The position numbers and the translations under genes are program-made. Shown here one piece after another: positions 56,910 through 62,772 of a DNA stretch of 64,000 nt. The stretch's first letter is position 1, and every line of letters starts with the position of its first letter. Source of the stretch: an uncultured Anaerolineae bacterium (GTDB lineage: Bacteria; Chloroflexota; Anaerolineae; CG2-30-64-16); NCBI GenBank assembly GCA_937124585.1, contig CAKZKT010000103.1, positions 1-64,000 of the forward strand, written 5' to 3'. The notes beneath the pieces were generated by a model. That model was given only the letters and a program-made list of their open reading frames with translations, made no database searches and was not told the DNA's origin.

Positions 56910-56962
56910 GACACCTCCCCGGCAGATGATGTGTGCTGCGCGTGGAACGCGGCACGATCTGT

Positions 56963-56991
56963 TTGACAAATCCACGACAGTCAATCAGAAT
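56963..56991 (+). promoter_or_regulatory. Candidate promoter for the HAD gene in the his cluster
   Basis: TTGACA (56963-56968), 17 bp, CAGAAT (56986-56991), about 60 bases before the HAD ATG, in the divergent hisB/HAD gap. No equally good minus-strand promoter for hisB was seen in the same gap. Confidence 0.55.
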
Positions 56992-57049
56992 AGCCTGGCT
57001 GTCGGCGGCCAAAGCCGCGCGGCTGCGATACGTTGACGATGGAGCCGAT

Positions 57050-58066
57050 ATGACGCCACGCCCACTGCCCCGTCCCGATGTGATCGTTTTCGATGCCGAC
57101 GGGACGCTGATCGACGTGACCCATTCCTATCGCGAGACCGCGCCCACCGCAGCGGGCATCTATCTGCGCCTGCTTGGACTGAATCCTCCGCCGCTGACCG
57201 GCGACCTCTACGACACGTTCAAGCGCATGACCGGCTTCAACGACGACTGGGATCTGACGGCCGGGCTGTTGCTGGCGCTGGTGGCCGGGCTGCCGCCGGC
57301 TCGACCCCTGTCCGCGGGCACCTGGGCCACGCAAGACGCGCTGCTGGCCGCACTGCGTGCAGCCTGCGCACCGCTCGCCGGGGCCACGCCGCCCCTGCCC
57401 GATTGGGAGGCCCTCGTCGCGGCGGTGCGGGCGGCGGGCGGCGGCCTGAGCGGCCTGACGGCCGTGCTGCCGATGCACAACGCGCACCTGGTCTGGCGCA
57501 CCGGAGACGCGGCCACAACCGACCTGGTCCAGCGCATCTTCTCCGAGGTGTACCTGGGCGCCGACCTGTTTGCCGAGGGCTACGGCTATTCCGTACGTTT
57601 CTGGCCGGCCCCCGGCCTGATCGAAACCGAACGGCTGCTCATCAGCCGTGAAACCCTGGCCGGCCTGGGCCGCTACGCGCGACTCGGCATCGCCACCGGC
57701 CGCACCCGCTTCGAGATGGCCCATCCCTTGCGGCATATGGCCCTGGCCGGCTTTTTCGGCGCCATCGCCACCATGACCGATGCGCTGGAGGCGCCCGGCG
57801 GCGCGTCGTGGCTGAAGCCACATCCTTTTCTGCTCCAGCGGGCTGCCGATGCGCTCGACCCGACCGGCGCGTTGTTGGCAGCCTACGTGGGCGACGCGCC
57901 CGATGATATCATGGCCGCGCGACGGGCTGCGGCGGCCGGCGGTCGGCACTGGCTCGCCATCGGCATCGCGACCACACCGGCCCAGGCCGAGCACTATCGT
58001 CAGCTGGGCGCCGACCACATCATCGCGCATCCCGACGAGCTGGCGGAGCTGTGGCACGCGCCGTGA
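57050..58066 (+). CDS. HAD-superfamily phosphatase within the his cluster (candidate histidinol-phosphatase)
   Basis: 338 aa; GGAG six bases before the ATG. HAD motifs are complete: motif I VIVFDADGTLIDVTHSYRET, motif II region LGIATGRTRFEM, motif III Lys in SWLKPHPFLLQ, and motif IV AYVGDAPDDIMAARRA. A large helical cap (residues ~45-200) suggests a sizeable or specific substrate. It is encoded on the opposite strand between hisC and hisB, and the cluster otherwise lacks a histidinol-phosphate phosphatase, so this is the best candidate for that step. The assignment is by position; the superfamily alone does not give the substrate. Confidence 0.8.
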   Translation: MTPRPLPRPDVIVFDADGTLIDVTHSYRETAPTAAGIYLRLLGLNPPPLTGDLYDTFKRMTGFNDDWDLTAGLLLALVAGLPPARPLSAGTWATQDALLAALRAACAPLAGATPPLPDWEALVAAVRAAGGGLSGLTAVLPMHNAHLVWRTGDAATTDLVQRIFSEVYLGADLFAEGYGYSVRFWPAPGLIETERLLISRETLAGLGRYARLGIATGRTRFEMAHPLRHMALAGFFGAIATMTDALEAPGGASWLKPHPFLLQRAADALDPTGALLAAYVGDAPDDIMAARRAAAAGGRHWLAIGIATTPAQAEHYRQLGADHIIAHPDELAELWHAP

Positions 58067-58113: not shown

Positions 58114-59262
58114 TCACACCTGCTTTAGCGCGGCCAGCAGCGCATCTGTTTGCTCTGGTCGGCCCGCGCTGATGCGGATGCAGTTTTCCAGGCCGGGTTT
58201 TGCATAGTGACGCACCAAAATGCCGCGAGCCGCCAGCGCTGCTTTCAATTCCCGGGCATCGCGGCCTTCGACCCGACACAGCACGAAGTTCGCCCGGCTC
58301 GGGTAGGGACGCAGGAAAGGCACGGCTGCGAGCTCCCGATACAGTCGTTCCCGTTCCGCGATCAGCGCCTCCACCGTGGGCCGGATCTCCTGCCGATGCG
58401 CCAGCGAGACGAGACCGGCCACGGTGGCCGCCACGTTGACGTTGTAGGGCTGCTTGGCCTTCCACAAGGTCGGCATCAGCCAGGCCGGGAAAATGCCGTA
58501 GCCCAGCCGCAGCCCGGCGATCCCTGCCCACTTGCTGAAGGTGCGCAGCACGATCAGATTCTCGTATTCGGGCACCCAGCGCGCGGCCGAATGCTCCAGC
58601 CCGGCAAACTCGATGTATGCCTCGTCCAGGATCACCAGCAGCGGCAACGTCAGCAGCCATTTCAGATCGGCCGGGTCGAGCAGGCTGCCATCTGGATTGT
58701 TGGGCGAGGTGAGGAAGAGGAGCTTGGGCGGCCGGGAAGCGGGAAACGGCAAGCGTGAGGCGTCATTTGCCGCTTTGCTGATCTGCCCGTTTGCCCATTT
58801 GCCGATTTCCTCTGCATCCACGCTGAAATCGGGCCGGCGCCAGACCTGGAGCACGCGGGCGCCGGTGAGGCCGGCGTCGAAGCCGTACATGCCGAAGGTC
58901 GGCGGACAGTCAATGATGGCGTCGCCGGGCGCCAGCGTGAGCCGGCAGATCAGGTCAATCAGCTCGTCGGCGCCGCTGCCGGCCAGGATGTGCTCGGCCG
59001 GCACGCCCGTGTAGTCGGCCAGCGCCGCGCGCAGCTCGCGCTGTTCCGGGTCCGGATAGATGTGAACAAACGGATAGCGCGCCAGCGCCTCGCGCACGGC
59101 CGGGGCCGGGCCGTAGGGATTCTCGTTGGCATCCAGCTTGACGATCTGCTCCGGAGGCCGGCCCAGCTGGTGGCTGAGCACCTCAAACGGCACGATCGGC
59201 GTGTACGGTTCCATGGCCGTGATGTGCGGCAGGAGAAAGCGGGCGAAAGTCGAGTCGCTCAA
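58114..59262 (-). CDS. hisC: Histidinol-phosphate aminotransferase
   Basis: 382 aa. TTG 59262 overlaps the hisD stop (TTGA) and keeps the usual [18 protein letters not shown] start of the family; ATG 59214 would cut this. PLP-dependent fold [43 protein letters not shown] and the PLP lysine in [18 protein letters not shown]. It makes histidinol phosphate from imidazole acetol phosphate. In the middle, [29 protein letters not shown] is a non-conserved insertion that is the translation of a periodic DNA array (58741-58811). Confidence 0.95.
58741..58811. repeat. Combined 7-bp and 8-bp period array inside hisC
   Basis: A heptamer-type stretch (58741-58763, related to CGTGAGG) is followed by six octamers at 58764-58811: CATTTGCC, GCTTTGCT, GATCTGCC, CGTTTGCC, CATTTGCC, GATTTCCT. 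The array is read through in the hisC frame. Confidence 0.8.
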
Positions 59263-60602
59263 TGTGTTCCCCCGTTGCCCGCGCGAAACTCGGCTGCGGC
59301 CGCATGGGCCGTCAAGCCTTCGCCGCGCGCCAGGAGCGCGGCCGGCCCGGCGAGTTGCGCGCCCGCGCCGGCGTTGAGCGCGACCAGGCTGATGCGCTTG
59401 ACGAAATCGGCAACGCTGAGCGGGCTGCTGTAGCGCGCGCTGCCCTCGGTAGGCATGACATGGCTCGGCCCGGCGACGTAGTCGCCCAGCACCTCGAACG
59501 AATGATCGCCGACGAAGATGCCGCCCGCGTTGCGCACGCGACCCACCCACGCCCACGGATCGGCGACCAGCAGGCACAGGTGCTCCGGCGCGTAGGCATT
59601 GGCCAGATCAATGGCTTCCTCCAGATCGGCCGTCAGCACGATCCCGCCTCGTGCGGCCAGCGCGGCCGCCGCGATGTCGCGACGGCTCAAGCCCTCGAGC
59701 TGCTGCGCCAGCTGCGCGGCCACGGCCTCGGCCAGGCGGCGTGAGGGGGTGAGCAGCAAGGGCGAGGCCAGGACGTCGTGTTCGGCCTGTGCCAGCATGT
59801 CGGCGGCCGCCCAGGCCGGATCGGCGGTGTCGTCCGCGATGACCAGCGTCTCGGTTGGCCCGTAAAAGCCGTCAATTCCGACGCTGCCGATCACCTGACG
59901 TTTGGCGAGGGTGACGAACAGGCCGCCGGCGCCGACGATCTTGTCTACTTTCGGCACGCTCGCTGTGCCGTAGGCCAGGCCGGCGATGGCCTGCGCGCCG
60001 CCGAGCGCGAAGAGGCGATCCACGCCGGCAACATGGGCGGCCGCCAGGATCAGGTCGTGCACGGTGCCGTCGCGGCCCGGCGGGGTGCAGGCCACGATCA
60101 GCGCCACACCGGCCACGCGGGCCGGGATGGCGGCCATCAGCAGCGAGGAGGGTAGCGGCGCGGTGCCGCCCGGCACGTAGACGCCGACGCGCTCGATGGG
60201 ACGGATGAGCTGGCCGAGCGTGCCTTCAGGGCCGCTGTCCACCCAGGAATCCAGCGGCTGTTTGCGATGGAAGTCGGCGATGCGCTGGCCCGCCAGGTCG
60301 AGCGCGGCCCGTTCGGCGGTCGGCAGGCGGTCGTAGGCAGCGCGCCAGGCAGCTGCCGGGATCTCCAGCTCGGTGGCGGCGCGGCCGTCAATGCGCGCCG
60401 ACCATTCGTGCAGCGCGGCATCGCCGCGACGACGGACATCGGCCAGAATGCGCGCCACTGCCTCAGCCGGCGCCAATCGTTCGCCGAAAATGCGCTCGAT
60501 GCCGTCCAGCACGCGGGCCGGCATCTCTTGATCTTCCCATGGCCTGCGCGCCAGCACGGTCGCGCGCGCCTCGGCCGCATCGTAAATCCTGATTACCGAC
60601 AT
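59259..60602 (-). CDS. hisD: Histidinol dehydrogenase
   Basis: 447 aa from ATG 60602, with AAGGAG upstream. Oxidises histidinol to histidine in two NAD-dependent steps. Typical motifs: [72 protein letters not shown] and [26 protein letters not shown], including the catalytic Glu/His pair near the end of the core ([12 protein letters not shown]). It lies between hisG and hisC. A heptamer array sits in the short gap upstream. Confidence 0.97.
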
Positions 60603-60613
60603 GGTGCTCCTTT

Positions 60614-60648
60614 CGTCAGACGTCAGGCGTGAACGCGAGACGTCACCG
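60614..60648. repeat. Array with 7-bp period between hisG and hisD
   Basis: Five degenerate heptamers: CGTCAGA, CGTCAGG, CGTGAAC, GCGAGAC, GTCACCG. Same family as 8597-8626. It fills most of the 70-bp hisG-hisD gap. Confidence 0.7.
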
Positions 60649-60673
60649 GAATGCCCGAGTCGTTCTACTGTGT

Positions 60674-61318
60674 TCATGCTTCCCGCGCTGCGTTCGCCAG
60701 CCCGTCAATCAATGCGCGCACGTCGCCGGCACGCAGCCGGTAGCTGGCACGATTGGCGATCAGCAGGGCCTGGCTTTCGAGGATGGTGCGCAGCTCGACC
60801 AGGCCGTTTTCGCGCAGCGTGGCGCCCGTCTGCACCAGGTCCACGATCAGGTCGGCCAGGCCAACGAGGGGCGCCAGCTCCACCGATCCGGCCATGACGA
60901 TCAGCTCGGCCGCCACACCGCGTTTGCGGAAGAACGCCTCGGTGAGGCGCGGGAATTTCGTGGCGACGCGCGGACTGCGCTCCAGACGCAACGGCAGATC
61001 GGGGCGGTCGCGGCGGCCGGCCACCACCAGCCGACAGTAGCCGAAGGGGAGCCGGAGCGGCTCATAGACATCGCGCTCTGCCTCGCGGACGACATCCAGC
61101 CCGGCGATCCCCACGTCGGCCGCGCCGTATTCGACGAAGATCGGGACGTCGGCCGGCTTCACCATGACGAACCGCAACCGGCCATCCGCGCCGTCCAGGA
61201 TCAGCTTGCGGCCGCCATCGCCGTTGACCGGCGTCGCATAGCCGGCGCGCGCCAAAAAGCCCAGTGCATCTTCCATCAGCCGCCCTTTGGGCAGCGCCAG
61301 GGTCAACGGTTCAGCCAT
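60674..61318 (-). CDS. hisG: ATP phosphoribosyltransferase, short form
   Basis: 214 aa, short HisG lacking the C-terminal regulatory domain. First step, joining ATP and PRPP. Motifs: [15 protein letters not shown], the binding-protein-like core [10 protein letters not shown], and the PRPP loop in [19 protein letters not shown]. Short HisG needs HisZ for activity and feedback control; hisZ overlaps its start by 16 bases, in agreement. Confidence 0.97.
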
Positions 61319-62580
61319 GAGGCCACCTCCTGCCAGTCATCTGCGGCCAACGTGTGCGTGCCCGAGCGGTCCTGCACGTGCAGGAGATGTGCATCGGTGT
61401 GATAGACCGCGCGTGGGATGCCGCGCGCCTGTGCGGCCTGCCAGAGCGCCTCCGGTGTCAGGCCCAGCGGATCGGTCTCGACCTTCAGGCCCAGGTTGCG
61501 CGCGCGGGCTGCCCAGGCCAGACAACGCGCGCAATTTTGCGCGGCGAGAAGCACGTCGACGCGCGGCTCGGCATAGACCACGCCCTGGAGCTCGCGCGCC
61601 AGCAGCACGCGATCTAGCGTCAGCGCCCAGCCGACCGCGGCCAGCGGCGGGCCGAAATGTCCGATCAGCTCGTCGTAGCGGCCGCCGGAGATCAGGTTGA
61701 AGCCCAGGCCAGGGGCGAACCCTTCGAAAGTGATGCCGGTGTAGTAGTCCAGGTCGCGCACCTCGGCCAGGTCGTAGGTCACGTGCTCGGCCACGCCATA
61801 GGCGGTCAGCAGTTCGGCGACGGCGCGCAGATCGGACAGGGCGCGCATCATTGTCGTGTTCAGGCAGATCGCCTCGGCCTCGGCCAGGATGCGGCCGTCG
61901 CCGGTGAGCCGTGGCAAGGTGAGGACAGCATTGCGGGCCAGCGGCGGCAAACTCGGATTTTCGACCAGCAGCCGGGCCAGCTCGGCCTCGGCTTTGCGAT
62001 CCACTGCAACGCGCAGCTGATGCGCCGCGCGTTCCGGCAGGTTCAGCGCGGCGAGCAGGCCGCGGAAGAAACCGATATGTCCTACGGTGATGCTAAACTC
62101 GGGCAGGCCCACGGCCTGGAGCGCGGCAACGGCCAGCGCTACCGACTCCGCGTCGGCCAGCGCGCCTGCCGCGCCGATCAATTCGACGCCGGCCTGCGTG
62201 AATTCGTGCTGTCGGCCGGCCCGCGGGGGCTCGTAGCGGAAGACGCTGCCCACATACGCCACGCGCAGCGGCATCGGTTGATCGTACAGCCGCGTGCCCA
62301 CCACACGGGCGGTGGGGATGGTCATGTCGGGGCGCAGGGCCAGGGTGCGACCATGGCGATCGAAGAAGCGATACATCTCCGCATCCACCGTCGCGCCGAC
62401 GTCGGTGGCCAGAGTGTCGGCGTACTCGAAGGTGGGCAGGCTGATTTCACGATAGCCCCAGGCCGACCAGGTCGCCTGCAGCGCGGCCGTCATGGCGCGG
62501 AAGGCCGCGGTATCGGCAAACAGCAGGTCGCGCACCCCTTCGGGCAGCGGTCGGTCCGTGAATCGGTTGCGGTCAGTCAT
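61303..62580 (-). CDS. hisZ: ATP phosphoribosyltransferase regulatory subunit
   Basis: 425 aa from ATG 62580 (TTG 62589 is possible). It resembles histidyl-tRNA synthetase: motif 1-like PEGVRDLLFADTAAF, motif 2 VGSVFRYEPPRAGRQHEFTQAGVELIG and the YYTGITFEGFAPGLGFNLISGGRYDEL region. It follows a his-specific attenuator and directly overlaps hisG, so it is HisZ rather than an active HisRS; it gives short HisG its histidine feedback site. A C-terminal extension (VDVLLAAQNCARCLAWAARAR) resembles the anticodon-binding fold, which some HisZ retain. Confidence 0.92.
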   Translation of the reverse strand: MTDRNRFTDRPLPEGVRDLLFADTAAFRAMTAALQATWSAWGYREISLPTFEYADTLATDVGATVDAEMYRFFDRHGRTLALRPDMTIPTARVVGTRLYDQPMPLRVAYVGSVFRYEPPRAGRQHEFTQAGVELIGAAGALADAESVALAVAALQAVGLPEFSITVGHIGFFRGLLAALNLPERAAHQLRVAVDRKAEAELARLLVENPSLPPLARNAVLTLPRLTGDGRILAEAEAICLNTTMMRALSDLRAVAELLTAYGVAEHVTYDLAEVRDLDYYTGITFEGFAPGLGFNLISGGRYDELIGHFGPPLAAVGWALTLDRVLLARELQGVVYAEPRVDVLLAAQNCARCLAWAARARNLGLKVETDPLGLTPEALWQAAQARGIPRAVYHTDAHLLHVQDRSGTHTLAADDWQEVASWLNR

Positions 62581-62600: not shown

Positions 62601-62632
62601 AAAAAAGGACTGGTTGAAATTCAACCAGTCCT
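62601..62632 (-). terminator. Attenuator terminator of the his operon
   Basis: On the minus strand AGGACTGGTTG (62632-62622) pairs perfectly with CAACCAGTCCT (62616-62606), 5-nt loop, followed by TTTTT (62605-62601). It lies between the leader peptide and hisZ, 20 bases before the hisZ ATG. Confidence 0.9.
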
Positions 62633-62657
62633 GGGGCAAGCACGAAGAAGACGCCGA

Positions 62658-62717
62658 CTATGCCGTGCGCCTGCCCCCTGCATCGTGATGATGGCGACGA
62701 GTATTGTTCTGCGACAT
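62658..62717 (-). CDS. hisL: His operon leader peptide
   Basis: A 19-codon reading frame, MSQNNTRRHHHDAGGRRTA, with three consecutive His codons (CAT CAT CAC) at codons 9-11, ending in TAG. AAGGA lies nine bases before its ATG. An upstream in-frame ATG at 62735 would give 25 residues but would begin almost at the transcription start. Together with the promoter and the terminator downstream it forms a classical translation-coupled attenuator: ribosome stalling at the His codons when charged tRNA-His is scarce would favour read-through into hisZ. One pairing in the spacer is GGGGCA/GCACG (62677-62672, 62668-62664) with CGTGC/TGCCCC (62644-62640, 62638-62633); the antiterminator form was not resolved. 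Confidence 0.8.
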   Translation of the reverse strand: MSQNNTRRHHHDAGGRRTA

Positions 62718-62743
62718 TTCCAGGTTTTCCTTCATCGAGGGCG

Positions 62744-62772
62744 AGTGTAGCACAACGGCGTGAGGTTGTCAA
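62744..62772 (-). promoter_or_regulatory. Promoter of the his operon
   Basis: Minus-strand TTGACA (62772-62767), exactly 17 bp, TACACT (62749-62744). Transcription would start near 62737, about 20 bases before the leader peptide ATG. Confidence 0.85.

Follow-up and report, generated by a model that had tools for sequence, protein, structure and literature searches.

The hisZGDC genes on the minus strand of the 64,000-nucleotide stretch of Anaerolineae DNA analysed here (hereafter, the window) are preceded by a promoter, a leader ORF with three tandem His codons, two mutually exclusive hairpins and an intrinsic terminator. Counting the window's genome, 46 genomes in 13 Anaerolineae families have upstream of hisZ a leader with two to five tandem His codons, the same hairpins and a covarying terminator. 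That ribosome-mediated histidine attenuation exists outside the Proteobacteria and Firmicutes is well supported by these conserved His-codon leaders and hairpins, by their covariation and by their placement before hisZ, and regulation by histidine is very likely. The best explanation, in our assessment with an even chance of being correct, is ribosome-mediated attenuation of histidine-gene transcription, in which a hairpin that we call P1, rather than a classical antiterminator, would oppose the terminator.

The leader region and the genes that it precedes

The features of the locus, all on the minus strand, are as follows.

62744–62772, minus strand: sigma-70-type promoter TTGACA-17-TACACT, by sequence reading (−35 at 62772–62767, 17-nt spacer, −10 at 62749–62744)
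62658–62717, minus strand: leader peptide ORF, MSQNNTRRHHHDAGGRRTA and stop codon, placed by the AGGA upstream and by the leaders of relatives
62685–62693, minus strand: three tandem His codons, CAT CAT CAC, by sequence reading
62649–62672, minus strand: hairpin X, AGGCGC (62672–62667) with GCGTCT (62654–62649) and CGGC (62665–62662) with GTCG (62658–62655); mutually exclusive with P1
62633–62677, minus strand: hairpin P1, proposed antiterminator, 5′ arm GGGGCAGGCGC (62677–62667), 3′ arm GTGCTTGCCCC (62643–62633), with the terminator immediately 3′
62601–62632, minus strand: intrinsic terminator, perfect 12-bp stem AGGACTGGTTGA/TCAACCAGTCCT (62632–62606), loop ATT, T6 (62606–62601)
61303–62580, minus strand: hisZ, ATP phosphoribosyltransferase regulatory subunit, first structural gene (TIGR00443, 7e-99, above cut-off)
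60674–61318, minus strand: hisG (TIGR00070)
59259–60677, minus strand: hisD (TIGR00069)
58114–59265, minus strand: hisC, start codon provisional (TIGR01141)

A preliminary description of this DNA had placed TTGACA-17-TACACT, a 19-codon leader with CAT CAT CAC, a terminator and hisZ in this order on the minus strand, all of which direct reading confirmed; the terminator, given there as 11 bp with T5, is indeed a perfect hairpin, with a stem of 12 bp when the outermost A-T pair is counted and a T6 tract. The genes hisZ, hisG, hisD and hisC, identified by NCBIfam, are consecutive. A HAD-type hydrolase gene (window positions 56933–58066, plus strand) splits the his cluster into hisZGDC and hisBH onwards; beyond it lies a second group, formed by hisB-hisH and then putative hisA, hisF and hisI, the latter assigned by reading. 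Since the HAD-type gene is on the opposite strand and hisB-hisH form a separate group after hisC, the leader directly serves hisZGDC.

Downstream of the promoter, then, lies a short ORF with tandem codons for the amino acid of the pathway, and an intrinsic terminator separates it from the pathway genes. The leader of the window runs from the ATG at 62717 to the TAG at 62660–62658 (19 codons). This ATG has an AGGA ribosome-binding site and lies at position +20, like those of its family relatives; a second in-frame ATG, at 62735, lies at about +2 of the predicted transcription start. A comparably good promoter is present in 41 of the 46 leaders. Most members of families f1, f24 and f32, and some of f36, have a ribosome-binding site before a start codon that is about 20 nt away from the point where transcription is predicted to begin. 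Leaderless mRNA is the probable template of the leader peptides of f39 and f43, whose ATG sits at roughly +1 to +3 of the predicted start; some members of f1 and f15 share this position and likewise look leaderless. Individual loci upstream of hisZ with the ATG at this position are L043, L050, L052, L057, L063 and L071, together with the f43 loci.

The His runs of the 46 leaders are two, three, four or five codons long and total 149 codons, 113 CAT and 36 CAC. Read from these sequences, what the tandem codons conserve is histidine as an amino acid: their third bases are free, the runs differ in length by whole codons, and they are in frame with the start.

Distribution among the Anaerolineae

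The HisZ sequence of the window was used as a query against 298 genomes of the class Anaerolineae, and the DNA upstream of some 100 hisZ genes was read; the named relatives in this set are Anaerolineae and Chloroflexi MAGs. A leader was scored by script as an ORF with tandem His codons followed by a terminator. The 13 families with a leader are f1, f8, f12, f14, f15, f17, f19, f24, f27 (represented by G026), f32, f36, f39 and f43. In f1 it is found in all eight genomes that have a true HisZ, and f15 and f17 are mixed, with hisZ genes both with and without it. No leader was found in the hisZ upstream regions read from f10, f21, f25, f30, f33, f38 and f49.

A covariance model gave 50 matches at E ≤ 1e-5 in 396 genomes of the class: 47 directly before hisZ (adjacency being judged from the hisZ places of the HisZ search, and in two cases by direct reading), two before hisD (in G007, and a second copy in G137) and one at a contig end. 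Beyond the class, the complete arrangement, with HHH and followed by hisZ, was found in a single genome, G409, which belongs to another Chloroflexota class. Weak model matches (E 1e-4 to 1e-2) in G027, G030, G047, G133, G478 and G430 were read and proved to be without a tandem-His leader; neither these nor those in G055, G161, G180, G317 and G381 were included in the counts.

A few loci depart from the common form. G137, which has one leader before hisZ, carries its second copy (L151:2216–2320; C102:24215–24319) before hisD-hisC; the peptide of this copy, MLTERFAFKYHFTSGVDR, has a single His between Tyr and Phe in place of HHH, and its hairpins are retained. The leader before hisZ in G234 (L159; C21:18269–18368) has HLH in place of HHH and retains both hairpins and terminator. 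In G047 (L156:2437–2510, minus strand; C196), a tRNA-Thr(CGT) gene with a GACTAGTC-type terminator directly after it stands immediately upstream of hisC, in the position occupied elsewhere by the leader hairpins.

The terminator covaries, with compensatory changes among relatives. The sequence of its arm (GACTAGT and variants) shows unusual conservation. A generic terminator of the lineage was ruled out as the source of this motif, the exact patterns occurring at most once per genome, at the leader locus, in the genomes tested; one terminator alike to that of the leader is the tRNA-Thr terminator before hisC in G047. Because the arrangement of the window is found in 46 genomes, with compensatory changes in a terminator whose sequence occurs once in the window's genome, it is more than chance. 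The proposal that a His-codon leader and terminator precede hisZGDC in a Chloroflexota genome was thus borne out by conservation in relatives, which retain His codons, frame and hairpin except for two doubtful cases (the one-His copy before hisD in G137 and the HLH of G234); the compensatory changes that the preliminary description had suggested looking for were found.

Two mutually exclusive hairpins

Hairpin P1 is located between the His codons and the terminator; its arms are typically GGGGTGAG...CTCACCCC, and GGGGCAGGCGCA...TGCGCTTGCCCC in f1. Its 3′ arm ends 0–5 nt (mean 1.4) before the terminator, with which it has no bases in common. Hairpin X lies inside the P1 region and pairs the 5′ strand of P1 with a 3′ partner closer by; since this strand is common to both, X and P1 are mutually exclusive. 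For P1 and the terminator together, 86% of cells are paired, against 37–54% when slid, and double-change cells number 57, against 6–18 slid (28 sequences), covariation being seen also helix by helix; for X, 89% of cells are paired and 13 show double changes (18 sequences), and all these counts take in related sequences and are not numbers of independent events. At five columns common to X and P1, the 5′ base can pair with both partners in 13–18 of the 18 sequences. Folding of the X region is more favourable than that of dinucleotide shuffles (mean z −1.49, s.e.m. 0.16, 46 leaders). A minority of leaders, those of f36 and isolated ones elsewhere, have a predicted X that takes little of the P1 arm.

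A protector strand upstream of P1 was considered and ruled out: no upstream strand pairing with the P1 5′ arm was found (mean z −0.16 against shuffles).

Search for a classical antiterminator

In a duplex test, each terminator 5′ arm was set against its own upstream region and the result compared with shuffled regions, with the E. coli his leader as positive control. Across the 46 leaders no upstream partner for the arm was found beyond chance (mean z −0.04), whereas the E. coli his control scored z −4.2, with the partner located where expected. Nor did sequence 5′ of the His codons pair with the arm in consistent excess over shuffles in the 46 leaders. The arm-upstream pairing probability was 0.82 for E. 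coli his and 0.08 for the Anaerolineae with a ribosome on the first His codon. Since arm pairing is at chance level here and the same test detects E. coli his, the classical element is missing outright and not just unresolved. The duplex test with its control and the pairing probabilities together rule out a classical 2:3 antiterminator, and no antiterminator shares bases with the terminator 5′ arm; we therefore file the leader as a variant that works alike, not as a classical attenuator. The preliminary description, which had called it classical and left the antiterminator pairing open, is to be revised on both points: in place of the classical form stand the two mutually exclusive middle hairpins.

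Ribosome position and the proposed mechanism

The ribosome of E. coli covers 13 nt ahead of the A-site codon. With this footprint, a ribosome stalled on the first His codon would end short of P1, which begins 13–28 nt past that codon; on the last His codon it would mask 3 P1 bases (median), and at the stop codon, on average, 76% of the P1 5′ arm. Partition functions gave a P1 occupancy of 0.95 with no ribosome, 0.97 with the ribosome on the first His codon, 0.65 on the last and 0.02 at the stop codon. As computed, therefore, the choice between alternative structures depends on whether the ribosome is at the regulatory codons or at the stop codon, and P1, high with the ribosome at the first His codon and low at the stop, behaves as an antiterminator would; the drop to 0.65 on the last His codon counts against this reading. 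For most f43 leaders, whose stop codon is past the P1 5′ arm, a ribosome at that codon would mask the arm in part or not at all.

The computed probability of the terminator is about 0.92 on average in every ribosome state. As the terminator thus forms thermodynamically in all of them, any effect of P1 on it must be steric or kinetic. A ribosome close upstream represses a terminator, and closing of the last 2–3 bp of the terminator hairpin is essential (PMC4824070). The distance from stop codon to terminator, 24–84 nt in the 46 leaders, is in keeping with the more than 20 bp of published amino-acid attenuators (PMC4824070), so that a ribosome at the stop codon need not block the terminator itself.

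In the scheme that we propose, the leader has its own promoter, and its transcript is translated. With charged tRNA-His plentiful, the ribosome would pass the His codons, halt at the stop codon and cover the 5′ arm common to X and P1, so that neither would form and the terminator would fold freely. With charged tRNA-His scarce, it would wait on the His codons with its leading edge just before the P1 5′ arm; because the edge would end short of this arm, X would form first and would then yield to the longer P1. X is probably, from its position, a pause hairpin that lets the ribosome catch up, and P1 would be the antiterminator, blocking termination by abutting the terminator. The balance tips slightly towards P1 being the antitermination state; that abutment is the physical means by which it acts seems to us a little doubtful. 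Since no upstream strand pairs with the P1 5′ arm, the model predicts readthrough without translation, unlike enteric attenuators. More tentatively still, we suggest that this is the attenuator of a whole lineage, in which a ribosome-gated hairpin would close against the base of a terminator with which it has no base in common, a second hairpin on the same 5′ arm would serve as a timer, and an untranslated leader would read through.

The same hairpins could be used in the opposite sense, with P1 as a classical protector (1:2) favouring termination; a ribosome on the last His codon would then cover the base of P1, X would take over, and the freed 3′ arm of P1 would pair weakly with the terminator 5′ arm and disturb it. 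A ribosome at that codon does cover the first few bases of P1, lowering its occupancy from 0.97 to 0.65, and spares X, which starts deeper; in this state, some pairing of the terminator 5′ arm with upstream sequence appears in f1 (0.2–0.8). P1 is intact, however, as long as the ribosome is held at the first His codon, and the complementarity called for is no better than in shuffles, and we consider this reading unlikely. We are similarly sceptical of a canonical antiterminator that is present but weak, tertiary or dependent on a factor (NusA, NusG or an RNA-binding protein) and so missed by energy models: the terminator arm (GACTAGT and variants) is conserved as if it had a second partner, its exact hairpin not recurring in the genomes tested, but the 46 leaders offer no consistent partner to a test that recovers the one in E. 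coli his.

Two further explanations are very improbable. The structured and conserved P1, X and terminator would suit a riboswitch or a protein-binding element to which the His-rich ORF is incidental; against it, His is kept at the amino-acid level despite CAT/CAC exchange, in frame with the start, and no Rfam riboswitch or T-box matches. Nor does a constitutive partial terminator without regulation, with which the predicted formation in all states agrees, account for the conserved His codons, their spacing and the mutually exclusive hairpins.

Comparison with known attenuators

The leader of the window has no match in Rfam: His_leader (RF00514) gave none even at E ≤ 10, and there was no T-box match. 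It resembles the enteric his attenuator (E. coli hisL; RF00514) in its promoter, short tandem-His ORF, intrinsic terminator and downstream histidine genes. The strand strongly complementary to the terminator arm in E. coli his has no counterpart in the Anaerolineae leaders, whose His codons lie upstream of the first switch strand and not, as in E. coli his, inside it; the first gene of the operon is hisZ, unlike in the enteric his operon. The Anaerolineae covariance model scored E. coli hisL (L177:1533–1647) at E 0.028, which is not significant and too weak for a claim of homology. Histidine T-box leaders are alike in placing histidine genes under RNA control by tRNA charging; the Anaerolineae leader differs in having no T-box match, its proposed sensor being the translating ribosome.

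The preliminary description saw in this locus an extension of leader-peptide attenuation from enteric his operons to a distant lineage; this holds for the Chloroflexota, but not for the purely enteric background, as His leader peptides have already been predicted in Firmicutes upstream of hisZ/hisS and of his operons (PMC2965389, PMC9413887). The Firmicutes leaders are alike in their predicted peptide with three to five His codons, attenuator and terminator, and in having hisZ among their targets; they belong to another phylum and have alternative antiterminator structures, a distinction that we draw from their description (PMC2965389, PMC9413887). The actinobacterial trp and leuS attenuators are also leader-peptide attenuators outside the Proteobacteria, but in the trp case antiterminator and terminator have conserved complementary triples in common, unlike in the Anaerolineae; the survey of Actinobacteria found no histidine attenuators (PMC1262725). 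No published account of a histidine attenuator in Chloroflexota was found in the literature searched, most subscription papers lying outside it, and priority is not certain. A broad survey of attenuation is reportedly that of Lopatovskaya et al. (2010).

Histidine attenuation by the ribosome thus very probably extends to the Chloroflexota, as an old trait shared across a large part of one class. The leaders form an RNA family that is missing from Rfam and ready for a covariance model, and they make it possible to ask cleanly, in a natural system, whether an intrinsic terminator can be switched off by a helix that does no more than abut it.
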